DNA of 11,962 bases from Arthrobacter sp. (GTDB lineage Bacteria; Actinomycetota; Actinomycetes; Actinomycetales; Micrococcaceae). This document shows, piece by piece, positions 1,013-11,791 of this stretch. Within the stretch, counting starts at the first letter, position 1; every line of letters begins with the position of its first letter. Position numbers and translations under genes: made by a program. Location of the stretch: positions 1 through 11,962 of the forward strand of contig JAODMA010000198.1 of assembly GCA_025464545.1 (NCBI GenBank). Direction: 5' to 3'. The notes beneath the pieces are model-generated. The model did not search any database. It had not been told where the DNA came from and saw nothing but the letters and a program-made list of their open reading frames with translations.

Positions 1013-1843
1013 ATGGCAGAACTCCAGCAGTCGCCATCCTTGAATCCGCCTAGTGGATCTGCTGCCCCTCCGGGCAGGCGTCCAACGCTGGGGGCGCCAG
1101 CAGGCCAGATCCGGCAAACATTTGAAAACCGCCTGGTCCTGGACCACCTGGATCTTGCCGAGGCGCTGGCGGCGCGTTTCGCGGGCCGTGGCCGGGAACG
1201 GGAGGATCTGATCCAGGTCGCCTATCTCGGGCTGATCAAGGCAGCCCGGGGGTTTGATGACAACCGGGGGGTCAGTTTTACGGCCTACGCCGCACCTACC
1301 GTCACCGGCGAACTCAAGCGCTACCTGCGGGACCGCTGCTGGGTGGTGAGACCGCCCCGTCGGATTCAGGATCTGCGAACCGAGCTCCTGCGCTCGGAGC
1401 CGGAACTGGCCCAGTCGCTGGGCCACCGTCCGACGGCCGCGGAGTTGGCGCGGGAACTGGGCGTGCCTGAAACCGTTGTACGCGAAGCGGCGGCAGCCGG
1501 ATCCAGCCTCCGCCCTGATTCGCTCGACATCATCGACACCAATGGTGACGGCCGCCCTGCCCTTGCCGAGTCGCTGGCCTCCCCGGACCTGCCGCTGGAG
1601 CGGCTGGAGGAACTCATGTGCCTCGACCAAGCAATACAGGAACTCTCGGAAGACGACCGGGAACTGCTCTACCGGCGCTACTTCTGCGAGGAAAGCCAGG
1701 CGGAGTTGGGCAGGAGGTTTGGCGTGTCGCAGATGCAGGTCTCCCGCAGGCTTTCGAAAGTGCTGGTGCGGCTGCAACAACTGCTGTCCGCGGCTGATGC
1801 TCAGAGCGATCCGGGTGTGCGGACAGCGTCCGTGACCTCCTGA
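1013..1843 (+). CDS. RNA polymerase sigma factor, SigB/SigF family
   Basis: A 276-residue alternative sigma factor of the sigma-70 group 3 (SigB/SigF stress and sporulation type), which directs RNA polymerase to its own promoter class. Region 2 spans about 41-113, with the core-binding stretch GREREDLIQVAYLGLIKAA and then TAYAAPTVTGELKRYLRD and WVVRPPRR, the family signature for DNA melting and -10 contact. Region 3 covers about 117-165. Region 4 covers about 200-256, with a helix-turn-helix at 228-253 (SQAELGRRFGVSQMQVSRRL). The first 35 residues are a Pro/Ser-rich tail. The start at 1013 was preferred over an ATG at 926 because the extra residues have no family character and AAAGGA precedes 1013. 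Family members are usually held by an RsbW-type anti-sigma factor; none is encoded here. It lies 105 bp upstream of gmhB on the same strand, with no terminator seen between, so it may regulate the heptose locus. Confidence 0.92.
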   Translation: MAELQQSPSLNPPSGSAAPPGRRPTLGAPAGQIRQTFENRLVLDHLDLAEALAARFAGRGREREDLIQVAYLGLIKAARGFDDNRGVSFTAYAAPTVTGELKRYLRDRCWVVRPPRRIQDLRTELLRSEPELAQSLGHRPTAAELARELGVPETVVREAAAAGSSLRPDSLDIIDTNGDGRPALAESLASPDLPLERLEELMCLDQAIQELSEDDRELLYRRYFCEESQAELGRRFGVSQMQVSRRLSKVLVRLQQLLSAADAQSDPGVRTASVTS

Positions 1844-1948: not shown

Positions 1949-2500
1949 ATGGGAAGTTCCGGTTTTCCGTCCTTGCGTGCTGTCCTGTTCGACCGTGACG
2001 GCACGCTGGTCCATGACGTTCCGTACAACGGGAATCCCGCGAGGGTGCGGATCATGCCGTACGCCCGCGAATCCCTGCAGCAACTGAGGGCGCACGGCAT
2101 AGCCACCGGTGTGCTGAGCAATCAGTCCGGCATCGCCCGGGGGATCCTCACGGTGGACCAGGTGCTCGCCGTCAACGGCCGTGTCGAGGAACTGCTGGGG
2201 CCCTTCGATGTGTGGGACTTTTGCCCGCATCTGCCGGAGGATCTCTGCAGCTGCCGGAAGCCGGAGCCGGGCATGATCGTCAACGCCTGCCGAAGGCTGG
2301 GCATCGCCACCGCAGACGCCGCCTACATCGGGGACATCGGCAGCGACCTGGGGGCCGCGGAGGCGGCAGGATCCCGTGGCGTACTGGTGCCGACTCCGGT
2401 GACCCGGGCGGCAGAAGTGGATGCCGCCCCCGTCGTCGCCGCGCACCTCGGCGCCGCCGTGGAGCTGCTCCTGAACCCGCCCGCGGGACCAGGCTCATGA
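1949..2500 (+). CDS. gmhB: D-glycero-D-manno-heptose 1,7-bisphosphate 7-phosphatase (GmhB-like HAD)
   Basis: A 183-residue cytoplasmic phosphatase of the HAD histidinol-phosphatase family, near the roughly 190 residues usual for GmhB. It removes the C7 phosphate of heptose 1,7-bisphosphate so that the 1-phosphate can be activated. Motif I is DRDGT (15-19; D15 nucleophile, D17 acid/base). Motif II is SNQSG (57-61), motif III is RKPEPGM (K104), and motif IV is GDIGSD (128-133). The structural zinc site is complete: C92, H94, C100 and C102 in FCPHLPEDLCSCRKP, a GmhB feature. All catalytic residues are present. The start at 1949 has a GAGG site 5 bases upstream; GTG at 1943 is a possible alternative. 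Its last four bases overlap the next start (ATGA). A histidinol phosphatase role is possible by family, but the neighbours gmhA and hldE argue for heptose. Confidence 0.88.
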   Translation: MGSSGFPSLRAVLFDRDGTLVHDVPYNGNPARVRIMPYARESLQQLRAHGIATGVLSNQSGIARGILTVDQVLAVNGRVEELLGPFDVWDFCPHLPEDLCSCRKPEPGMIVNACRRLGIATADAAYIGDIGSDLGAAEAAGSRGVLVPTPVTRAAEVDAAPVVAAHLGAAVELLLNPPAGPGS

Positions 2501-3573
2501 CGGCCGTTCTGGTGGCCCGGCTCGACAGCGTGGGAGATGTTCTGTTGGCGGGTCCCGCCATCCGGGCCGTGGCCCATGGCCGGCGGCTTGACGGAGGCGA
2601 GCCGAACGACGTCGTCCTGCTCTGTGGGCCGCAAGGGGAACCGGCGGCGTCGCTCCTGCCCGGCGTCACCGAGGTGTACAGCTGGAACTGCCCGTGGATC
2701 GTGAAGCCGGCACCTCCGGTGGACCAGGAGCAGCTGGACGCGCTGCGGAGGTTCATCAGCGATTCGCGGATCACTGAAGCGGTTCTCCTGACCTCCTTCC
2801 ACCAGTCGCCGCTACCCTTGGCCCTGGTGTTGCGGCTGGCCGGCGTCCGCCGGATCACCGGGGTGTCCACGGACTATGCCGGCAGCCTGCTGGACAATCG
2901 CCTGCGGCCAGGCGAGGACCTCCCGGAAGACCAGCCGGAGGCGGAACGTGCCCTCGGCATCGCCACTGCCGCCGGCTTCACCCTTCCGCCCGGCGACGAC
3001 GGCCGGCTTCGGGTCACCGGCCTGCCGGATGTGCGTGGGCTGGTGGGCGAGGAGCCGTACGTTGTTATCCACCCGGGCGCCTCCGCCCCTGCCCGGGCCT
3101 GGCCGGCCCTGCACCATGCTGCCGCGGTGGAACTCCTCGAGGGCGCCGGGCACCGGGTGGTCGTTACCGGAGGTCCCGGGGAAACCGAGCTCACGGCAAC
3201 GGTCGCCGGACCCTCGGCGGTGGACCTTGGCGGACGGACGGACCTGAAGACCCTGGCCGGCGTCCTTGCCCACGCGGAGGTCCTGGTCACCGGTAACACC
3301 GGCCCGGCGCATCTGGCCGCCGCCCTGGGGACACCGGTGGCCTGCCTGTTTTCCCCGGTGGTGCCGGCAATCAGGTGGGCGCCGTACGGAGTGCCGCTGG
3401 AACTTCTGGGGGATCAGGCTGCTCCCTGCAGGCTGACCCGGGCCACCGATTGCCCTGTGCCTGGTCATCCGTGCCTGGCGTCAGTTGCCCCGGAGCAGCT
3501 GGTGGAGGCCGTGGAACGTCTGATCAGCGGGGTCGCCTCGCTGTCCACCCGACGGAAGGTGCGGCACCCATGA
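2497..3573 (+). CDS. Glycosyltransferase family 9, heptosyltransferase-like
   Basis: A 358-residue GT-B enzyme of family GT9, whose known members (WaaC, WaaF) move heptose from ADP-heptose onto an acceptor. The N-terminal acceptor domain starts with VARLDSVGDVLLAGPAI (6-22), where G13-D14 is the position of the catalytic Asp. The C-terminal donor domain contains HPGAS (192-196), the GGPGE loop (225-229), DLGGRTDLKTLAGVL (243-257) and TGNTGPAHLAAALGTP (265-280), with H272 in the donor-site motif. The length suits GT9. The start is the ATG overlapping the gmhB stop by four bases, which implies translational coupling and excludes longer upstream frames. Being coupled to ADP-heptose synthesis genes, it probably transfers the heptose made by them. 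The acceptor is unknown, because actinobacteria have no lipid A core. It could also use another NDP-sugar. Confidence 0.87.
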   Translation: MTAVLVARLDSVGDVLLAGPAIRAVAHGRRLDGGEPNDVVLLCGPQGEPAASLLPGVTEVYSWNCPWIVKPAPPVDQEQLDALRRFISDSRITEAVLLTSFHQSPLPLALVLRLAGVRRITGVSTDYAGSLLDNRLRPGEDLPEDQPEAERALGIATAAGFTLPPGDDGRLRVTGLPDVRGLVGEEPYVVIHPGASAPARAWPALHHAAAVELLEGAGHRVVVTGGPGETELTATVAGPSAVDLGGRTDLKTLAGVLAHAEVLVTGNTGPAHLAAALGTPVACLFSPVVPAIRWAPYGVPLELLGDQAAPCRLTRATDCPVPGHPCLASVAPEQLVEAVERLISGVASLSTRRKVRHP

Positions 3574-4586
3574 GAATCCTGCTGTGGCACGTGCATGGAG
3601 GCTGGACGGACGCCTTTGTCCGCGGTCCGCACGAATACCTGCTTCCGGCACTTCCGGACGGCGGTCCCTGGGGGATGGGCCGCGCGGGCCGGAACTGGCC
3701 GGATTCGGTCCGGGACGTGAGCCTGGACGCGGTGGAACCGGCCAGTGTGGACGCCGTCGTGCTGCAGCGGCCGGAGGAGCTCGCAGAGGTCGCCCGGGCT
3801 CTGGGCCGCCGGCCCGGCAAGGACCTGCCGGCCGTGTACCTGGAGCACAACACCCCTAAAGGCGACGTTCCGAACACGGTCCATCCGTTCGCGGACCAGA
3901 CGTCCATACCGATTGTTCATGTGACGCACTTCAATGACCTGTTCTGGGACAACGGCGCGGCACGGACGGTGGTCATCGAGCATGGAGTCCCCGATCCGGG
4001 GCACCTCTATACCGGTGACATCGCGGAACTGGCGGCCGTGGTCAACGAACCCGTGCGGCGCGGCCGGGTCACCGGCACCGACCTGCTGGCCCGCTTTGCG
4101 GGGGCCGCCCCGCTGCAGATGTTCGGGATGGGTGGCGCCGGCCTGCGGGAGGCGACCGGACTGCCGGCCTCGCGGCTGACAATACGCGGGGATCTGCCCA
4201 CAGCTCAGCTGCACCGTGAACTCGCCCGCTGCCGGGTGTACGTCCATCCGCTGCGCTGGACGTCCCTGGGCCTGGCCCTGCTGGAAGCGATGCAGCTTGG
4301 GATGCCGGTCGTCGTACTGGGTACTACCGAAGCGGCCCGTGCCGTGCCGCCGGAGGCCGGCGCGATTTCCACCAGCGTCGACGAACTCGTGCGCAGCGCA
4401 ACGATGCTCGTCAACGACCCGCAGGAAGCGCGGCGCCGGGGGGACATCGCCCGCCGGGTCGCCCTCGAACGCTACGGCCTCGAGGCCTTCCTGCGGGCGT
4501 GGGATGCTCTGCTTGACGAGCTAGCCGCCCCACGCTTCCGGACCGGCCGGATTCTGATTCCATCGCAGGAAGGGATGAGCCAGTGA
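3570..4586 (+). CDS. Glycosyltransferase, GT4-like (GT-B fold)
   Basis: A 338-residue predicted retaining glycosyltransferase. The C-terminal half carries the donor-binding signature CRVYVHPLRWTSLGLALLEAMQLG followed by MPVVV (221-249), with the phosphate-binding Glu at E239. The first acidic residue of the usual E-x7-E pair is replaced in this LRWTSLG version, so it is a variant member. The N-terminal half has motifs EHNTPKGDVP (92-101) and VTHFNDLFW (118-126), likely the acceptor domain. No signal peptide or membrane segment is visible. The ATG overlaps the previous stop by four bases, and a GGAAGG site lies upstream inside the GT9 gene. Donor and acceptor cannot be read from sequence. Its place between a GT9 gene and a second GT4 gene indicates that it adds a sugar to the same glycan. 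The C-terminal segment (320-338) is probably a disordered tail. Confidence 0.8.
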   Translation: MRILLWHVHGGWTDAFVRGPHEYLLPALPDGGPWGMGRAGRNWPDSVRDVSLDAVEPASVDAVVLQRPEELAEVARALGRRPGKDLPAVYLEHNTPKGDVPNTVHPFADQTSIPIVHVTHFNDLFWDNGAARTVVIEHGVPDPGHLYTGDIAELAAVVNEPVRRGRVTGTDLLARFAGAAPLQMFGMGGAGLREATGLPASRLTIRGDLPTAQLHRELARCRVYVHPLRWTSLGLALLEAMQLGMPVVVLGTTEAARAVPPEAGAISTSVDELVRSATMLVNDPQEARRRGDIARRVALERYGLEAFLRAWDALLDELAAPRFRTGRILIPSQEGMSQ

Positions 4587-5839
4587 GAATAGCCATGGTT
4601 TCGGAGCACGCCAGTCCGCTGGCGGCGCTGGGCGGAGTGGACGCCGGCGGTCAGAACGTCCACGTGGCGGCACTTTCGACCGCGCTGGCCCGGCGCGGCC
4701 ACCACGTCACCGTGTACACCCGCCGGGATTCAGCCAGGTTGGCCCGGCGGGTGCAGATACTGCCGCATCTGGAGGTTGTCCACCTGGATGCCGGTCCGGC
4801 ACGCCACGTGCCCAAGGACGAACTCCTCCCGTACATGGGCGCACTGGCCGACGGCATCTCCCGGGACTGGCAGCGCCGCCCGCCCGACGTGATCCACGGA
4901 CATTTCTGGATGTCGGGCGTGGCCGCCCTCGACGCGGCCCGCCGGGGACCCTCCGGCGCCCACGTGCCCGTGGTGCAGACGTTCCACGCGCTGGGAACCG
5001 TCAAGCGCCGCCATCAGGGGGCCGAGGACACCAGCCCGCTGGAGCGGCAATGGCTGGAGCCGTCCGTGGGCAGATCGGTGGATCGAATTATCGCCACGTG
5101 TTCCGACGAGGTCTTTGAGCTCAAGGCCATGGGCATCGATACGGCCCGGATCTCCGTTGCCCCCTGCGGAGTGGATCTGGAACTGTTTTCCGGCGCCGGC
5201 GCGGCCGAGCCCCGCCGCCGCGCCCACCGCATCCTTTCCGTCGGGCGCCTGGTTCCGCGGAAGGGCGTCGATCTGGTGATTGAGGCGCTGCCGGCCCTGC
5301 GGGACGCCGGCTTCGACGTCGAACTCCTGATCGTCGGCGGTGGCGGGGATGCGGCGGCGGTGGCGGGCGACGCCGAAGCCCGCCGGCTGCTCGACGTCGC
5401 CACCGCGTTGGGAGTGCACGAACGGGTCGCCTTCCGGGGCCAGGTGCCCCGCGGCGCCATGCCGGCCATCTTCCGCAGCGCCGATGCGGTGGTGTGCACG
5501 CCGTGGTACGAACCGTTCGGCATCGTGCCGCTGGAGGCGATGGCCTGCGGCGTGCCGGTGGTGGCGGCGGCCGTGGGCGGGCTGCGCGACACCGTGGTGG
5601 ACCAGTGGACCGGCCTGCACGTGCCCCCGAAAGATCCTGCCGCCATCACGGCCGCGCTCGCCGCCCTGCTGGCCGATCCGGGCCTACGCCGGGCGCTGGG
5701 CGCCGGTGGCGAGGCACGCGCCCGGGCCCGATATTCCTGGGCTCGTGTGGCCGCCGAAACGGAGAGGGCGTATCTGCAGACGATGGCCGCGAGCGCGGAT
5801 GCCCGGCGGCTAGATGCAGTGGAAGGAGCCGTGCTGTGA
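4583..5839 (+). CDS. Glycosyltransferase family 4 (group 1), sucrose-phosphate synthase/MshA-like
   Basis: A 418-residue GT4 enzyme with a GT-B fold, length normal for the family. The N-terminal half has the glycine-rich loop GGVDAGGQNVHVAALSTAL (17-35), typical of the MshA and sucrose-phosphate synthase branch, and the HGHFW segment (105-109). The C-terminal donor domain has SVGRLVPRKGVD (219-230) and a full E-x7-E motif, E310 and E318 in WYEPFGIVPLEAMACGVPVV, so it should be active. No membrane segment is seen. Translation starts at a GTG whose last bases overlap the previous stop (GTGA), with GGAAGGGA upstream. MshA itself makes mycothiol precursor from UDP-GlcNAc; that role is unlikely here because the neighbours are heptose genes, so transfer of a sugar onto a shared glycan or glycolipid is more likely. 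The exact donor is not determinable. Confidence 0.85.
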   Translation: MRIAMVSEHASPLAALGGVDAGGQNVHVAALSTALARRGHHVTVYTRRDSARLARRVQILPHLEVVHLDAGPARHVPKDELLPYMGALADGISRDWQRRPPDVIHGHFWMSGVAALDAARRGPSGAHVPVVQTFHALGTVKRRHQGAEDTSPLERQWLEPSVGRSVDRIIATCSDEVFELKAMGIDTARISVAPCGVDLELFSGAGAAEPRRRAHRILSVGRLVPRKGVDLVIEALPALRDAGFDVELLIVGGGGDAAAVAGDAEARRLLDVATALGVHERVAFRGQVPRGAMPAIFRSADAVVCTPWYEPFGIVPLEAMACGVPVVAAAVGGLRDTVVDQWTGLHVPPKDPAAITAALAALLADPGLRRALGAGGEARARARYSWARVAAETERAYLQTMAASADARRLDAVEGAVL

Positions 5840-6534
5840 CTCCGGAACCACCCCTCAAGGACAGTGCCGCTCAGCTCCTGCTGATGCCTGAAACCGGCAC
5901 CGTCCCAAGCCCGGGCCCGGACTGTCCGCCGGACTCCGTTGCTGCAGTCCGCAGTCACTTGGACAACGTCCTGCCGGCGTTCGAGTCCTTGCGAAGCCAG
6001 TCCTTCCACCTGGCTGCGTGGGGCGAGGAGCTGGCACGCCGGCTGCTGCGGGGCTCGCGGTTGCTCGCTGCCGGAAACGGCGGCTCCGCGGCCGAAGCCC
6101 AGCACCTGACGGCGGAGCTGGTGGGTCGGTTCGACGGCGAGCGGGTGCCGTTTTCGGCGATTTCGCTTCATGCGGAGACCTCGGCGGTCACCGCTATCGC
6201 CAACGATTACGGCTTCGAGGAACTTTTCGCCCGCCAGGTGCGCGCGCACGCCCGCACGGGCGATGTGCTGATGCTGCTGTCCACCAGCGGAAAAAGTCCC
6301 AACCTGCTCCGGGCGGCGGAAACGGCCTCCCGGCTCGGGGTCGTCACCTGGGCGCTGACCGGTCCCGGCCCGAATCCGCTGGCTGCGAGCTGCAACGAGG
6401 CCGTGACGATTGATGGTCCGGCCGCCAACGCCCAGGAATGCCATCTGATCGCGCTTCATGCCGTGTGCCGGGCGTTCGACGCCGAGGTACTGCGCCGCGG
6501 ACGCCAGGGCATACCGGCAGGGGCAGTGCGATGA
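5836..6534 (+). CDS. gmhA: Sedoheptulose-7-phosphate isomerase (GmhA, SIS domain)
   Basis: A 232-residue SIS-domain isomerase converting sedoheptulose 7-phosphate to D-glycero-D-manno-heptose 7-phosphate, the first step of heptose activation. The GmhA signature is strong: GNGGSAAEAQHLTAELVGRF (80-99), ISLHAETSAVTAIANDYGFE (109-128), the phosphate-binding loop STSGKSPN (149-156) and QECHLIALH (200-208). The metal/catalytic positions H90, E94, Q200 and H208 are all present. Compared with typical GmhA of about 190 residues there is a Pro-rich extension of roughly 35 residues at the N-terminus. The GTG start at 5836 overlaps the previous stop (GTGA) and has GGAAGGAG 7 bases upstream, so this start is preferred over an ATG at 5884. 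It is coupled to hldE at its end (ATGA). Confidence 0.93.
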   Translation: MTPEPPLKDSAAQLLLMPETGTVPSPGPDCPPDSVAAVRSHLDNVLPAFESLRSQSFHLAAWGEELARRLLRGSRLLAAGNGGSAAEAQHLTAELVGRFDGERVPFSAISLHAETSAVTAIANDYGFEELFARQVRAHARTGDVLMLLSTSGKSPNLLRAAETASRLGVVTWALTGPGPNPLAASCNEAVTIDGPAANAQECHLIALHAVCRAFDAEVLRRGRQGIPAGAVR

Positions 6535-7907
6535 GCATCGTCGTTGTCGGTGACGTCCTGCTGGATGTGGACCTTGACGGGCAGGCCACCCGGCTTAGCC
6601 CCGACGCGCCGGTGCCCGTCGTTGACGTGTCCAACGCCCGGCGGCGCGCCGGTGGTGCCGGGCTGGTGGCCCGGATGCTCGCCGGCGACGGCCATTCGGT
6701 CGTCCTGGTGACTGTGCTGGGCGCGGATGAGGCGTCTACCAGGGTCGAGGAGGAACTGGCCGGTGTCACGGTGGTCGCGGGACCGTCCGGCGCTCCGACC
6801 CCCGTCAAAACCCGGGTCCGTGCCGGCGGCCATCCGCTGGTCCGGTTCGACGAGGGATGCGAACGCCCTGCCGTCCCGGAGGCTACGGCTGCCATGCTGC
6901 AGGCGTTGGACGTCGCGTCCGCGGTCGTGGTCGCCGATTACGGACGGGGCCTGACCGCGAATGCCGAGCTCCGGGCTGCGCTGTCGCGGCTTGCCGGGCG
7001 GGTGCCGATCGTTTGGGACCCCCACCCGGCCGGGTCAACGCCGGTTCCCGGCGTTGACGTGGTCACGCCTAATCTGGCCGAAGCCCGCGCCGCGGCCGGG
7101 CCCGGCAGCCTGTCCGACGCCGCCGGCTTGCTGGCGGAGAAGCTGCTGCGCCGCTGGCAGAGCAAGGCGGTGCTGGTGACACAGGGCGAGCAGGGCGCCG
7201 TCCTGGCGCAGGACTCGGGGCGGATGCCCTTTCCGATCTCGGTACCAAAGACCCACGTCACCGATCCCTGCGGCGCCGGGGACAGGCTCGCCGCGAGCCT
7301 CGCAGTCCATCTGGCGGCGGGACAGGACCTCGAGGGCGCGGCCGTCCTGGCGGTCCGTGAGGCGGCCGTGTTCCTGGCCGGCGGCGGCGTGGCGGGACTG
7401 GGCGGCCGGCCGGGTTCGTTTCCGCATGCCGTCCCCGGCAGGGAACGGCGGGATCCCGACGCCTTGGCGCTTGCCCGAAGGGTTCGCAGGGCGGGCGGGA
7501 CCGTGGTCGCGACCGGCGGTTGCTTCGATCTCCTGCACGCCGGGCATGCCCGGTCCCTCGCGGCCGCCCGGCGCCTCGGCGACTGCCTCATCGTGTGCCT
7601 GAACTCCGACGCCTCGGTGCGGAGGATCAAGGGCGCCTCCCGTCCCATCATCAACGAGCAGGACCGGTCGGAACTGCTGCTGGCACTCCAGTGCGTGGAC
7701 GGCGTGCTGGTCTTCGAGGAGGACACCCCGGAAGCGTGCCTCGATGCGCTCCGCCCGGACATATGGGTGAAGGGCGGCGCCTATGACGTGCGGAACCTGC
7801 CGGAGACCCCGTTGGTGGAGAGCTGGGGCGGGCGGTGCCTCACCGTCCCGCACCACCCCGCCCGCTCCACGACGCATCTCGCCGATGCGCTGGCACGGGT
7901 CGGCTGA
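6531..7907 (+). CDS. hldE: Bifunctional heptose 7-phosphate kinase / heptose 1-phosphate adenylyltransferase, divergent copy
   Basis: A 458-residue two-domain enzyme. Residues 1-300 are a PfkB-type kinase (VVGDVLLDVD at 5-14, LSPDAPVPVVDV at 22-33, and DPCGAGD at 245-251 with catalytic D251). Residues 324-458 are a nucleotidyltransferase of the HldE/RfaE C-terminal type (GGCFDLLHAGH at 329-339 with the HxGH motif, LNSDASVRRIKG at 357-368, WVKGG at 412-416, STTHL at 446-450). The kinase phosphorylates C1 of heptose 7-phosphate; the second domain makes ADP-heptose. The start is the ATG overlapping the gmhA stop. Differences from the second copy in this window are notable: the sugar-binding GGAANxAMN motif is replaced by GGAGLVARM (41-49), and the usual DTTGAGD has become DPCGAGD. 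The adenylyltransferase half looks intact, while the kinase may have altered or reduced specificity. Last of the six-gene overlapping run. Confidence 0.88.
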   Translation: MSIVVVGDVLLDVDLDGQATRLSPDAPVPVVDVSNARRRAGGAGLVARMLAGDGHSVVLVTVLGADEASTRVEEELAGVTVVAGPSGAPTPVKTRVRAGGHPLVRFDEGCERPAVPEATAAMLQALDVASAVVVADYGRGLTANAELRAALSRLAGRVPIVWDPHPAGSTPVPGVDVVTPNLAEARAAAGPGSLSDAAGLLAEKLLRRWQSKAVLVTQGEQGAVLAQDSGRMPFPISVPKTHVTDPCGAGDRLAASLAVHLAAGQDLEGAAVLAVREAAVFLAGGGVAGLGGRPGSFPHAVPGRERRDPDALALARRVRRAGGTVVATGGCFDLLHAGHARSLAAARRLGDCLIVCLNSDASVRRIKGASRPIINEQDRSELLLALQCVDGVLVFEEDTPEACLDALRPDIWVKGGAYDVRNLPETPLVESWGGRCLTVPHHPARSTTHLADALARVG

Positions 7908-7911
7908 CCCG
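7896..7911 (+). repeat. 6-bp stem-loop at the hldE stop codon
   Basis: CGGGTC and GACCCG pair around a GGCT loop and include the hldE stop codon. No T-run follows. It could slow transcription or weakly terminate it between the six-gene block and the SDR gene, or be incidental to GC-rich sequence. Confidence 0.25.
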
Positions 7912-7979
7912 CCCGCCCGTTACCCCTGGGCTCGGCCCCGCAGCCCGCAGGACTCAGACCACACAGCGAAAGGAACACC

Positions 7980-8681
7980 ATGAACCACGAGATACTTTTC
8001 CCCGGCCGGGTCCTTGTTACCGGAGGTGCCTCCGGACTTGGCGCCGCCGTCGTTGAGGCCGTGCTGCAGGCCGGCGGAACACCTGTTGTGCTGGACCGCG
8101 ACCTCCGGGAGGTATCCGCGGTGAAAGCCATCGAAGTGGACGTGGCGGACCGGGTGGCCGTGACTGCCGCCGTGCGGCAGGCAGCCGAGATGCTTGGCGG
8201 TCTGGACGCTGTGGTGACCGCCGCGGGGATCGACCGCTGTGGCCGGCTGGAGGATGTCCGGCCGGAGGACTGGGAGCAGGTCATCTTCGTCAACCTGCTC
8301 GGCACCGTGTCGGTGGTGCGCGCCGCGCTGCCGTACCTGAAGGCATCCCGCGGGCGGGTGGTCACGGTGGCGTCAACCCTGGGCAAGCGGGCGCTGCCGG
8401 AGGCTTCCGCCTATTGCGCGTCCAAATTCGGCGTCGTGGGGTTCAGCCAGGCGCTTGCCGCCGAAACCGGGGGCGAGCTCGGCGTAACCACCCTGATCCC
8501 GGGTGGAATGAAGACCCGGTTCTTTGACGACCGGGCGGAGCAGTACAAGCCGCAGGACGATTCGCGGCTGAACGATCCGGCGAATGTGGCGCGGGCTGTT
8601 CTGTTCGCGCTGTCCCAGCCGCCCGGCTCTGAAGTCCGCGAACTGCTCATCTGCCACGCGGAGGAGGGCTCGTGGCCGTAA
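7980..8681 (+). CDS. Short-chain dehydrogenase/reductase (classical SDR)
   Basis: A 233-residue classical SDR with a Rossmann fold, oxidising or reducing a hydroxyl/carbonyl with a nicotinamide cofactor. The cofactor motif is TGGASGLG (14-21). The acidic D39 in VVLDRD, at the end of the second strand, favours NAD(H) over NADP(H). The usual NAG is replaced by TAAG (80-83). The catalytic tetrad is present as N105, S132, Y145 and K149 (AYCASK), followed by the PGG loop (174-176). The ATG has an AAAGGA site at a good distance. It is 72 bp after hldE, the first break in the overlapping run. At 233 residues with YCASK it is far too short for HldD, an extended SDR of about 310 residues, so it is unlikely to be the C6 epimerase. 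A role in oxidising or reducing a sugar or aglycone of the locus is an inference from position. Confidence 0.88.
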   Translation: MNHEILFPGRVLVTGGASGLGAAVVEAVLQAGGTPVVLDRDLREVSAVKAIEVDVADRVAVTAAVRQAAEMLGGLDAVVTAAGIDRCGRLEDVRPEDWEQVIFVNLLGTVSVVRAALPYLKASRGRVVTVASTLGKRALPEASAYCASKFGVVGFSQALAAETGGELGVTTLIPGGMKTRFFDDRAEQYKPQDDSRLNDPANVARAVLFALSQPPGSEVRELLICHAEEGSWP

Positions 8682-8733
8682 GGAGCCTCACGGTCGGCAC
8701 ACCACCCGCAGATAGACCGGCTTCCTGCGCAGC

Positions 8734-8759
8734 GTGTAAAGACGCCGCGGCCGGGGTAC
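8734..8759 (+). promoter_or_regulatory. Candidate SigB/SigF-type promoter before ALDH
   Basis: GTGTAA (8734-8739), a 14-base spacer and GGGTAC (8754-8759) match the SigB/SigF promoter class well, with the same spacer length as the candidate before gmhB. It sits in the 165-bp gap between SDR and ALDH, the longest gap inside the locus, about 87 bases before the ALDH start, leaving room for an untranslated leader. The rest of the gap shows no gene I trust. The match was made by eye. Confidence 0.5.
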
Positions 8760-8846
8760 GGAAGGGTCATAGGAGCTGCCCGAAACGGCCCGCTGCCGCG
8801 CAGGCGACCGGGGCGGATCTCCGGGCTACACCACGGAAGGAGTCCG

Positions 8847-10250
8847 ATGTCCGCGATCGTCCAGCAAGCCCGCAGCAGCTATCCGGAGCTGCTCACCATT
8901 AGCGATCCGCGCAGCGGCGAGCCGGTAGGTAGCCTTCCGGTTGCCCGCCCGCTCGCCATCCGGCGGGCGGTGAACGCCGCCCGTGCCGCGCACCCTGGCT
9001 GGTCCGCGACAGCCCCGGCGGCGAGGGGAAGCCGTCTGCGCGACGCCGCCCGGGCGCTGGCGGCCGCCACCGTGGAGCTTGCTGAATTGAACAGCCGTGA
9101 AACCGGCCGCCCGGCAGCCGAGGCAGCGGCCGGAATAGCCGCGGGCGTCGCTACCTTGGAGCAGTACGCGGAGCTTGGACCGGTCCACCGCGGGCATAGC
9201 CTGCGGGGCGACCCGTTGGCCGCGGACTTCACCATTGCCGAGTCCCGTGGTGTCGCCGTCTTGCTGACCCCGTGGAATGACCCGGTGGCGGTGGCCTGCG
9301 GCCTGATCGGCGCGGCCCTGGTAACCGGCAACACCGTGGTACACAAACCCAGTGAACGCTGCCCGCACCTCGGCATTCTCCTTGGCCAAGTCCTGTCGCC
9401 GATATTTCCGCCGGATGTCCTTATCACGCTCACCGGCGGGGCGACGGTGGGAACGCAGCTGACCGAACAGGCGGGCGTGTCCGTGGTGGCGCACGTGGGG
9501 TCCAGCGCGTCCGGTGCCCGGATCGCGCGGAGCTCCCTGCTGAGCGGGGCGCACGTGATCCGCGAAAACGGGGGCAACGATCCGCTCATAGTGGACGACG
9601 ACGTCGACCCCGTCTGGGCCGCCGGGCAGGCGGCCGTGGGGGCCTTCAGCAACAGCGGCCAGATCTGCACGTCGGTGGAGCGCATCTACGTCCACCGGGC
9701 CATCGCAGCGCCATTCTGTGCCGCACTCGGGGAGGAAGCCCGGCGCCGGAACGGGGATGGAGGCCTGGCGCCCCTGGTGGACGGCGATCTTCGGGACGCT
9801 GTCCACCGCCAGGTCGCCGAGGCCCTGCAGCAGGGGGCGCGGGCCGTGGAAGGAGGAACTCTGCCGGACGGACCCGGCTCCCATTACCCGGCCACCGTCC
9901 TTCTCAATTGCACGGCGGAGATGAGCGTCATGGCGGAGGAAACGTTCGGCCCCGTCGCACCGGTCCAGGTTGTGGACAGCTTCGATGACGGGCTCCGGCT
10001 CGCCGCCGCGGGCCGCTACGGGCTGGCTGCCACAGTTCTCACGGGAACGATCGCCCACGCCCAGCGCGCCATCGCTGCTCTTCCGGTCGGCACCGTCAAA
10101 GTCAATGAGGTTTTCGGCGGTGCCCCCGGGGGCTCGGCGCAGCCCCGGGGAGACAGCGGCAGCGGCTTCGGCTACGGCCCCGAACTGCTGGATGAATTCA
10201 CCAGGGTCAAGGTCGTGCATATTGCGCCCCCGCCCGGGGGCCGGCCGTGA
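8847..10250 (+). CDS. NAD(P)-dependent aldehyde dehydrogenase
   Basis: A 467-residue member of the aldehyde dehydrogenase superfamily, which oxidises aldehydes to acids through a cysteine thioester. The catalytic set is complete: N144 in TPWNDP, K167 in VHKPSE, E240 in the altered motif ENGGND (usually ELGGK), nucleophile C274 in SNSGQICTS, and E365 in EETFGPV. The length is slightly short of the usual 480-500, mostly at the termini. The start has a strong GGAAGGAG site 6 bases upstream. It follows the SDR by 165 bp, with a candidate SigB-type promoter in the gap, and its stop overlaps the start of the second hldE (GTGA), tying it to heptose activation. Substrate cannot be read from sequence. 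An SDR/ALDH pair could convert an alcohol stepwise to an acid, perhaps giving an acidic sugar, or remove an aldehyde by-product. Confidence 0.87.
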   Translation: MSAIVQQARSSYPELLTISDPRSGEPVGSLPVARPLAIRRAVNAARAAHPGWSATAPAARGSRLRDAARALAAATVELAELNSRETGRPAAEAAAGIAAGVATLEQYAELGPVHRGHSLRGDPLAADFTIAESRGVAVLLTPWNDPVAVACGLIGAALVTGNTVVHKPSERCPHLGILLGQVLSPIFPPDVLITLTGGATVGTQLTEQAGVSVVAHVGSSASGARIARSSLLSGAHVIRENGGNDPLIVDDDVDPVWAAGQAAVGAFSNSGQICTSVERIYVHRAIAAPFCAALGEEARRRNGDGGLAPLVDGDLRDAVHRQVAEALQQGARAVEGGTLPDGPGSHYPATVLLNCTAEMSVMAEETFGPVAPVQVVDSFDDGLRLAAAGRYGLAATVLTGTIAHAQRAIAALPVGTVKVNEVFGGAPGGSAQPRGDSGSGFGYGPELLDEFTRVKVVHIAPPPGGRP

Positions 10251-11791
10251 GCACGGCCGCTACGGAACCCGCCGGCAACCGTCGCGGGCCGTTGACCGAG
10301 CAGCGCGGACTAGAAGACTGGCTTCCCGGGGCGCTCGCCGCGGCGGGACCGTCGATTGCCGTCGTCGGCGACGTGATGCTGGACGGCTGGTGGACCGGAA
10401 CCATCGACCGGCTGTGCCGGGAAGGGCCCGCCCCCGTCGTGGACATCCGCCGGCGCAGCTTCGCCCCGGGCGGCGCCGCCAACACGGCCATGAACCTTGC
10501 TGCTCTGGGGGCACGGGTGAGCCTGGTAGGAGTCGTGGGGTGCGATGACGGCGGTTCGGAACTGATACGTCAGTTAGAGGCCGCCGGGGTGGATACCACC
10601 AATATCCACAGGGTGCCGGGCGTTCCGACCACCACTAAGACCCGCATCAGCAGTGCCGGCCAACTGTTGCTGCGCTTTGATGAGGCAGCGGCAGACCTCC
10701 CGGAGGAGGCCCTTGCCGCCGTCGCGCAGTCCCTTCCCGGCGCGCTTCGGGCGCAGGAGGCGGTAGTGCTGTGCGACTACGGGGCCGGAGCACTGACCGG
10801 TCCGGTACGGAGCGTCCTGTTCGAGTTGCTGCAGGACCGCCCGGCGTCCCTGCTGGCCGTGGTCGATGCGCACGATCCCCGGCCCTGGGCGCCACTCCGG
10901 CCTGACTTGGCCACTCCCAATGCTGCGGAAGCCGCTTCAATACTGGGCCTCCACCTGCCGCAGGGCGCGGCGCGCCCAGCCGTCCTGGTGGAGCACCGGG
11001 CCTCCCTGCTCAAGGCCACCGGCGCAGCTGCCGTGGTAGTCACCCTGGACCGGGACGGAACCGTGCTGTTGCCGGCCGGCGGTGACGTCCACCGGACGTG
11101 GGCAAAGCCCGTAGCAGAGAAACAGGCGTCGGGTGCGGGGGACACTTTCGTGGCTGCGCTGACCTTGGCCAGGGCCGCCTCGCTGCCGTTGACAACCAGC
11201 GTGGATCTTGCCCAGGCCGCGGCCGACATCGCCGTTCACCGCCCCGGCACCTCGGTCTGCAGCACCGCCGACCTCGGCCGCTACCTGGAAAGCTTCGCCG
11301 ACACGGCTCTCGAAGCCGAGGAGCTCACCCGGCACCTCGCACGCCATCGCGGGGAGGGGCAGACGATCGTGCTCACCAACGGTTGCTTCGATGTGCTCCA
11401 CCGGGGCCACACCCGCTATCTCAACCAGGCGAAGCAGCTGGGGGACATCCTGGTCGTGGCACTGAACAGCGATGATTCGGTCCGGCTGCTCAAGGGACCG
11501 GACCGGCCCATTAATACCGTGGCAGACCGGGCGGCCGTAATCGCTGCGCTCAGCTGCGTGGACTACGTCACGGTGTTCGACACCGCCACCCCTATCCCGC
11601 TGATCGACCAGCTCAGGCCGGAGATTTATGCCAAGGGGGGCGACTACAGCCCGGAGATGCTCGCGGAGACCAGTGCCGTGGAAAGCTACGGGGGACGCGT
11701 GGTGATTCTGGATTACGTGGCGGAGTTGTCAACCACCGCGGTGGTGCAGCGCATTCGCAGCGGAGAAGGGGCTGCCCTCGGCGAGGGCTGA
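10247..11791 (+). CDS. hldE: Bifunctional heptose 7-phosphate kinase / heptose 1-phosphate adenylyltransferase, canonical copy
   Basis: A 514-residue HldE-type enzyme with a 30-residue N-terminal extension. The PfkB kinase spans about 35-350: VVGDVMLDGWW (39-49), APGGAANTAMNLAALGA (73-89, the sugar-binding motif intact), TTTKTR (128-133), CDYGAGAL (176-183) and ASGAGDTF (294-301) with catalytic D299. The adenylyltransferase spans about 373-505: TNGCFDVLHRGHTRYL (377-392, HxGH at 385-388), LNSDDSVRLLKG (406-417), YAKGGDY (461-467) and LSTTAVV (494-500). This copy resembles proteobacterial HldE more closely than the copy at 6531-7907. The GTG start overlaps the ALDH stop by four bases; the upstream purine stretch is only GGGGG, so translation probably depends on coupling. 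The two copies may supply two sugars or divide kinase and transferase duties. Confidence 0.92.
   Translation: MSTAATEPAGNRRGPLTEQRGLEDWLPGALAAAGPSIAVVGDVMLDGWWTGTIDRLCREGPAPVVDIRRRSFAPGGAANTAMNLAALGARVSLVGVVGCDDGGSELIRQLEAAGVDTTNIHRVPGVPTTTKTRISSAGQLLLRFDEAAADLPEEALAAVAQSLPGALRAQEAVVLCDYGAGALTGPVRSVLFELLQDRPASLLAVVDAHDPRPWAPLRPDLATPNAAEAASILGLHLPQGAARPAVLVEHRASLLKATGAAAVVVTLDRDGTVLLPAGGDVHRTWAKPVAEKQASGAGDTFVAALTLARAASLPLTTSVDLAQAAADIAVHRPGTSVCSTADLGRYLESFADTALEAEELTRHLARHRGEGQTIVLTNGCFDVLHRGHTRYLNQAKQLGDILVVALNSDDSVRLLKGPDRPINTVADRAAVIAALSCVDYVTVFDTATPIPLIDQLRPEIYAKGGDYSPEMLAETSAVESYGGRVVILDYVAELSTTAVVQRIRSGEGAALGEG

Follow-up and report, generated by a model that had tools for sequence, protein, structure and literature searches.

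Gene content and layout of the locus

The DNA analysed here (the window) is a stretch of 11,962 nucleotides from Arthrobacter sp. (assembly GCA_025464545.1, contig JAODMA010000198.1). The draft genome to which it belongs, as contig 279, measures 2.58 Mb in 507 contigs and is 68% complete and 2% contaminated. A preliminary description of the window had placed a locus for the synthesis and transfer of ADP-heptose at positions 1949-11791. These coordinates hold, and the gene families were re-identified by Pfam and NCBIfam profile matches. Nine genes occupy this segment on one strand, in the order gmhB, GT9, GTa, GTb, gmhA, hldE1, SDR, ALDH and hldE2 (start codons are inferred):

1949-2500, plus strand: GmhB-type HAD-IIIA phosphatase (heptose 1,7-bisphosphate 7-phosphatase); TIGR01662 109.8 bits, cut-off 44.6
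2497-3573, plus strand: GT9 glycosyltransferase (heptosyltransferase family); PF01075 82.4 bits, cut-off 22
3570-4586, plus strand: GTa, GT4-like glycosyltransferase; PF13692 40.8 bits (cut-off 27), PF00534 37.3 bits
4583-5839, plus strand: GTb, GT4 glycosyltransferase; PF00534 135.7 bits, cut-off 26.4
5836-6534, plus strand: GmhA-type sedoheptulose 7-phosphate isomerase; TIGR00441 132.1 bits, PRK13936 154.4 bits, both below the equivalog cut-offs
6531-7907, plus strand: HldE1, bifunctional kinase/nucleotidyltransferase of an actinobacterial HldE clade; PRK11316 291.6, TIGR02198 164.1, TIGR02199 173.0 bits
7980-8681, plus strand: classical short-chain dehydrogenase/reductase (SDR); PF00106 144.1 bits
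8847-10250, plus strand: aldehyde dehydrogenase family protein (ALDH); PF00171 328.9 bits
10247-11791, plus strand: HldE2, second bifunctional kinase/nucleotidyltransferase, of a clade other than that of HldE1; PRK11316 359.9, TIGR02198 212.4, TIGR02199 198.2 bits

Four-base overlaps join the genes at six of the eight junctions, and the remaining two gaps measure 72 and 165 bases. Nine same-strand genes with this many overlapping junctions have the layout of one operon, and the segment reads as such. All genes named by the preliminary description are present, but it left unmentioned the SDR, the ALDH and a SigB-type sigma factor gene at about 1013-1843.

The host had been presumed to be a Gram-positive actinobacterium without lipopolysaccharide (LPS), and this is supported. 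The nearest named relatives of HldE1 belong to Arthrobacter and Pseudarthrobacter (records very near the own genome were possibly excluded). LpxC, of lipid A biosynthesis, was found in none of 101 same-genus genomes, the own (68% complete) genome included, and in 4 of 14 control genomes. With regard to the HldD 6-epimerase, none of 59 genomes had a match above the TIGR02197 cut-off, as compared with 2 of 14 controls, although weaker matches to epimerase relatives occurred in all 59. This suggests that the heptose probably remains in the D,D (D-glycero-D-manno) form, unless another epimerase acts.

Enzyme and glycosyltransferase families

Among the NCBIfam families listed, the only equivalog-type cut-off that was reached was the one for the HldE2 nucleotidyltransferase domain (TIGR02199; 198.2 vs. 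181.5 bits). The same domain of HldE1 fell just under it (173.0 vs. 181.5), and the kinase domains of HldE1 and HldE2 (164.1 and 212.4 vs. 345), GmhA (TIGR00441; 132.1 vs. 209.45) and GmhB (PRK08942; 107.1 vs. 178) were also below their cut-offs. The GmhB protein was, in addition, above the cut-off of a broader model, TIGR01656 for histidinol-phosphatase domains (100.5 vs. 84.15). On these profile matches the enzyme families of the operon proteins can be taken as secure, and the exact substrates as predicted. When compared with PDB entries, GmhA matched the phosphoheptose isomerases 1tk9, 5i01 and 5by2 (best E 3e-36), and the best match of GmhB was 4pnh, a D,D-heptose 1,7-bisphosphate phosphatase (E 4e-18). 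Alignments to the E. coli enzymes indicated that the window GmhA keeps the H/E/Q/H positions, which we take to be metal-binding, and that the window GmhB keeps DRDGT and the Cys/His set, whose roles we likewise presume.

The window GT9 aligns with PDB 3tov, 1psw and 2h1f (a GT9 structure, WaaF and WaaC, respectively), and was also aligned to WaaC and WaaF. It was considered as the sole GT9 of the genome, which own-genome searches ruled out, and the gene set is not complete within the window. The draft genome carries three GT9 genes above the PF01075 cut-off, the window gene and two adjacent genes at locus L220 on another contig:

Contig C385, 2369-3628, minus strand: GT9 gene
Contig C385, 3632-4627, minus strand: GT9 gene

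These two proteins are ~50-73% identical to the products of GT9 genes found next to the operon, on the opposite strand, in Micrococcales relatives, and 34-41% identical to the window GT9. Judged by these identities, the pair is orthologous to the operon-flanking GT9 genes of the relatives. In many same-genus genomes the pair lies far from the operon, and six such distant sites, compared with L220, represented at least three different genomic contexts. The three GT9 genes probably form one system. As to the GT4-type enzymes, GTa was detected at E < 1e-100 in 67 of the 101 same-genus genomes (own included), with weak matches only in 10 more. An identification of GTb as MshA was not accepted, the nearest NCBIfam model (TIGR03449) giving 244.5 bits vs. 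a cut-off of 462.5.

Co-occurrence of HldE1 and GT9 and conservation of the operon

A strong HldE1 match, defined as E < 1e-50 (a threshold chosen after the scores had been seen), was present in 31 of 58 relatives, namely 24/36 same-genus and 7/22 other same-order genomes. Nine more of the 58 had weaker matches alone (E 7e-22 to 2e-4). All 31 genomes that had a strong HldE1 match also matched the GT9 family (PF01075), and none of the remaining 27 did (Fisher p 4e-17, shared ancestry being ignored). The strongest of the weak HldE1 cases (G050, E 7e-22) is without GT9. Both GT9 proteins from contig C385 matched the identical set of 31 genomes; in the seven non-genus genomes the matches were at family level (32-38% identity) for one protein and at 46-52% for the other. 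Three PF01075 matches per genome were counted in 23 of the 24 HldE1-bearing same-genus relatives and four in the remaining one, where one gene yields two pieces. All 24 also had an HldE2-type match. Since GT9 presence tracks HldE1 exactly, the earlier reading of a synthesis-and-transfer locus, in which synthesis genes stand with heptosyltransferase-family genes, is supported. For the transfer of heptose from ADP-heptose by GT9, the co-occurrence may be taken as indirect support.

The gene neighbourhood was compared in named genomes, from which the best 80 of 150 HldE1 relatives were retained as loci. Within 8 kb of HldE1 and on the same strand, these contained GmhA (76 loci), GTb (75), GT9 (66), GTa (63), GmhB (61), SDR (46), HldE2 (30), SigB (30) and ALDH (27), with ALDH present in 26 of the 30 loci that carry HldE2. 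The full core of GmhB, GT9, GTa, GTb and GmhA was found in 51 of 69 loci with sufficient flank on both sides, and at least one member was missing in 18. The grouping of genes around HldE1 is far beyond chance. It is also not restricted to Micrococcaceae, as Streptomyces, Mycobacterium, Nonomuraea, Amycolatopsis and others carry related operons.

Predicted proteins were further clustered across 101 sequence sets (L035-L134 and the window); L035-L054 overlap the named loci, several of the contigs being of equal length, and the locus counts for clustering, HldE residues and motifs do not represent independent genomes. One representative each served to identify a carbamoyltransferase family, found in 41 sets, and an NAD-dependent epimerase family, found in 35. 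These two families were mainly seen in the locus type of Streptomyces, Mycobacterium, Nonomuraea and Amycolatopsis, where ALDH and HldE2 were mostly not seen. A UDP-sugar dehydrogenase family and a pyruvyltransferase-like family occurred in 6 sets each. Polysaccharide clusters carry such genes as well, which is in favour of a glycan product.

Two loci differ in extent or location. A reduced locus in Streptomyces fungicidicus (L173, 4057-11245) comprises an epimerase, a carbamoyltransferase, two glycosyltransferases, a SIS protein and an HldE, and is without GmhB and GT9; a major facilitator superfamily (MFS) transporter gene lies just downstream on the opposite strand. Losses like these were seen in other Streptomyces loci. 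In Arthrobacter sp. StoSoilB13 the entire operon type, with both HldE1 and HldE2, is located on a large plasmid record of 1.0 Mb (L172, 1900-13500), where the HldE1 match is split in two pieces.

Two HldE lineages in one operon

Both window HldEs contain the GAGD, HxGH, KGG and STT motifs, and GAGD (alignment columns 261-264) was present in all aligned rows (97/97 HldE1 and 42/42 HldE2). A midpoint-rooted FastTree tree was built from 87 sequences: a sample of HldE1 and HldE2, other actinobacterial hits and seven reference HldEs, of which six are plasmid-borne and one is the E. coli K-12 HldE. A few loci are represented twice, with different ids. HldE1 and HldE2 fell into separate clades. Four other actinobacterial enzymes joined HldE2 (support 0.998), and this group lay on the same side of the tree as the reference HldEs. 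In this tree of sampled sequences, the separate clades leave a recent duplication of hldE1 as the origin of hldE2 unsupported.

For 40 of the 80 named loci, 38 genomes were searched with TIGR02199. A single match, taken to be HldE1, was found in 24 of them, which suggests that in these genomes HldE1 probably carries out both the kinase and the nucleotidyltransferase reaction. A reciprocal loss of function (HldE1 acting as kinase only and HldE2 as nucleotidyltransferase only) was dropped in view of such single-match genomes and of the residues around STT described below. Conversely, the HldE of two otherwise similar loci, L175 and L177, is of the HldE2 type. The window thus combines two HldE lineages, each of which seems to serve singly elsewhere. 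At the distant actinobacterial locus L177 (8481-18803) the gene set is largely that of the window, but with a single, HldE2-like HldE: it contains GmhA and GmhB, both GT4-like genes, three GT9 matches, the SDR and the ALDH. Its HldE joins the HldE2 clade with weak support only (0.204), and its genome gave further, separate matches to a single-domain kinase and a single-domain nucleotidyltransferase.

The two enzymes also differ in a motif that has been linked to the choice of nucleoside triphosphate (NTP). The motif (F/L)XXGRSTT, with Arg at position 5, has been described as the hallmark of those enzymes whose products include CDP- and UDP-heptose (PMC11573728). The window HldE1 reads HHPARSTT, in which the motif Arg is present and positions 1 and 4 deviate, and the window HldE2 reads YVAELSTT, without the Arg. 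The Arg was found in 40/41 HldE1 paired with HldE2, 45/56 unpaired HldE1, 20/42 HldE2 and 0/7 references. The strict motif was found in 0/41, 4/56 and 0/42 of the first three groups, respectively. The fifth residue after STT was Ala in 41/41 paired HldE1, Arg in 35/56 HldE1 without a local HldE2 (several of these 56 come from genomes with one TIGR02199 match) and Arg or Lys in 40/42 HldE2; the Arg of the STTR5 motif lies before STT and not after it (PMC11573728). As a hypothesis from these residues, HldE1 and HldE2 may make different nucleotide-heptose donors.

A proposed heptose pathway and its alternatives

Our favoured interpretation, which we hold to be probable with some reservation, is that the operon encodes a nucleoside diphosphate (NDP)-D,D-heptose pathway that feeds a small heptose-containing glycan. 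It builds on the observed enzyme families, operon layout, conservation and exact HldE1/GT9 co-occurrence; from these we infer the substrates, the order of the steps and the glycan nature of the product. In the proposed scheme, GmhA would isomerise sedoheptulose 7-phosphate, an HldE kinase domain would phosphorylate C1, and GmhB would remove the 7-phosphate. An HldE nucleotidyltransferase domain would then activate the sugar with ATP, and in the case of HldE1 perhaps also with CTP or UTP. The heptose would keep its D,D form without an HldD-type epimerase. It would be moved to an acceptor, together with other sugars, by the window GT9, the two GT9 enzymes of the other contig and the two GT4-type enzymes, in a cell that seemingly lacks LPS, and the SDR and ALDH may tailor the sugar or the product. 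The preliminary description had specified ADP-heptose. Its reading of heptose synthesis is supported by our results, but the nucleotide need not be ADP alone, considering that HldE1 keeps the NTP-promiscuity Arg in a variant motif.

A more far-reaching version would make the product an envelope heptose oligosaccharide that is the functional counterpart of the LPS inner core in Arthrobacter and related monoderm actinobacteria. Here the three GT9 and two GT4 enzymes would build the oligosaccharide, and the two HldEs, which differ in descent, would provide different transferases with two NDP-heptoses (e.g., ADP-heptose made by HldE2, and CDP- or UDP-heptose made by HldE1). We regard this version as speculative and rather unlikely.

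Several observations weigh against the favoured interpretation. Nearly all operon matches miss the NCBIfam equivalog cut-offs, GT9 is a family assignment and no proof of heptose transfer, and the co-occurrence, besides its post hoc HldE1 threshold, comes from related genomes. No flippase, polymerase or ligase was found among 20 Pfam-annotated flanking or accessory proteins of relatives (10 + 10); the remaining neighbour families, and those around the distant GT9 pair, were covered by clustering and not by this annotation. In addition, positions that are invariant in the seven reference HldEs (E. coli numbering) are changed in the kinase domains: N55 is Leu in 97/97 HldE1, K179 is His in 97/97 HldE1 and 42/42 HldE2, and in HldE2 P34 is Arg (42/42) and D258 is Gln (40/42). 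In the window itself, N55, K179 and Y186 (7/7 references) are altered in both HldEs, except that HldE2 retains N55. Such kinase-pocket residues would touch the substrate, and the sugar could therefore differ. Not all of the HldE2 pocket changes extend to the more distant members of that clade. The earlier statement that the key motifs are intact is thus right for the catalytic motifs of both HldEs, GmhA and GmhB, but does not extend to the kinase pockets, where several positions are unlike those of the references.

These pocket changes, together with kinase domains that score below the equivalog cut-offs in both paralogues, are what would be expected if HldE1 and/or HldE2 used another sugar phosphate. 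The end product would then be a different NDP-sugar, and 'heptose' a family name only. Nonetheless, GmhA and GmhB stand beside HldE1 in 76/80 and 61/80 named loci, and GT9 and HldE1 co-occur exactly in the 58 relatives; both fit heptose, and we consider another sugar improbable. It is somewhat less doubtful, but still unlikely in our view, that hldE2 is a redundant second enzyme without a separate role. The catalytic motifs are kept in both window HldEs, a single TIGR02199 match suffices in 24/38 other genomes and HldE2-type enzymes are the HldE of L175 and L177, all in line with redundancy. This contrasts with the pair being kept in 24/24 HldE1-bearing same-genus relatives and 30/80 named loci, and with pocket residues that differ between the two clades.

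The nature of the product can be questioned as well. A secreted heptose-containing secondary metabolite, as opposed to a cell-envelope glycan, would have a precedent in Streptomyces, where ADP-heptose is made by S. fimbriatus (septacidin) and S. hygroscopicus (hygromycin B) (PMC10221265). The lack of polymerase, flippase and ligase genes among the 20 annotated proteins would be consistent with such a product. So would genes of a tailoring type, namely the SDR and ALDH genes and the carbamoyltransferase gene of other actinobacteria, and the MFS transporter gene next to one annotated Streptomyces locus. However, it would be atypical of a secondary metabolite that GTa is present in 67/101 same-genus genomes and that the grouping extends over many genera. 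The transferase genes (three GT9 and two GT4) suggest an oligosaccharide, and the nine operon genes include no nucleoside, peptide or polyketide core gene. We judge a secreted metabolite to be an unlikely product. Least plausible of all is that the heptose is put on proteins by O-heptosylation of the TibC/Aah type, an option that we consider very improbable. The window GT9 does match TIGR04414 weakly, and no lipid-linked glycan export genes were seen among the proteins annotated, but the match (22.7 bits) is far under the cut-off of 200. Further, no target-protein gene was prominent among the annotated neighbour families, and the several transferases presumably exceed what that chemistry needs.

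Relation to known heptose systems

When compared with the Gram-negative ADP-heptose pathway (GmhA, HldE, GmhB and HldD with GT9 enzymes of the WaaC/WaaF type), the operon shares the enzyme families that lead to NDP-heptose as well as the transferase family. It differs by the lack of LpxC and of an HldD above cut-off, by its GT4 partners, by two HldEs of other clades and by the SDR and ALDH. Mycobacteria likewise synthesise heptose as actinobacteria, with a GDP-heptose set that uses other kinase and nucleotidyltransferase families. Tridomain NDP-heptose synthetases, with isomerase, kinase and nucleotidyltransferase domains, are reportedly the subject of Tang et al. 2022 in actinobacteria. In 3 of 91 loci (L047, L090 and L123) GmhA and HldE1 form one uninterrupted frame, in line with that enzyme type, which has been described (PMC11573728). 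The window instead encodes GmhA and HldE1 in two genes that overlap by 4 bases, and it has a second HldE.

Closer to the host, the Streptomyces routes that supply ADP-heptose to septacidin, spicamycin and hygromycin B also rely on sedoheptulose-derived heptose activation in Gram-positive actinobacteria (PMC10221265, PMC10948575). These feed secondary metabolites, whereas the operon has several transferases, is widespread and conserved, and lacks a metabolite core gene. The preliminary description had linked the heptose route to the LPS inner core of Gram-negative bacteria. ADP-heptose outside this group was already in print (PMC10221265), and NDP-heptose in actinobacteria is, as a general kind, already known. 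In the literature searched, which was judged by titles and abstract openings and did not extend to most subscription papers, we found no description of a two-HldE operon with three GT9 genes over two loci and exact co-occurrence. Paired HldE enzymes together with three genes of the heptosyltransferase family appear to be an uncharacterised variant of this kind.

NDP-heptoses alert vertebrate cells via ALPK1, and it has been proposed that heptoses may have more roles for their producers than are known, with those of CDP- and UDP-heptose being elusive (PMC11573728). A conserved operon of a soil Arthrobacter with exactly tracking transferases offers a concrete, deletable system in which to find the heptose product. 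If it is true that HldE1 and HldE2 supply different nucleotide-heptoses, this could give CDP- or UDP-heptose a physiological role.

Neighbouring features

Upstream of the operon lies one further gene on the same strand:

about 1013-1843, plus strand: SigB/SigF-type RNA polymerase sigma factor; TIGR02980 212.9 bits, below the cut-off of 234.35

A gap of 105 bases separates the end of this gene from the operon. Whether the sigma factor belongs to the heptose system is uncertain, and it is possible that the operon is under stress control through it. In Frankia, a gene annotated as ADP-heptose:LPS heptosyltransferase was up under salt stress (Table 3 of PMC5563000), and this may be a GT9 of a related system.

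Near the start of the window, an open frame on the minus strand (386-778) encodes a signal-like stretch at the N-terminus, a middle part rich in Ser, Thr and Pro and, at the C-terminus, a hydrophobic stretch with a basic tail. Its product may be a small surface-anchored protein.

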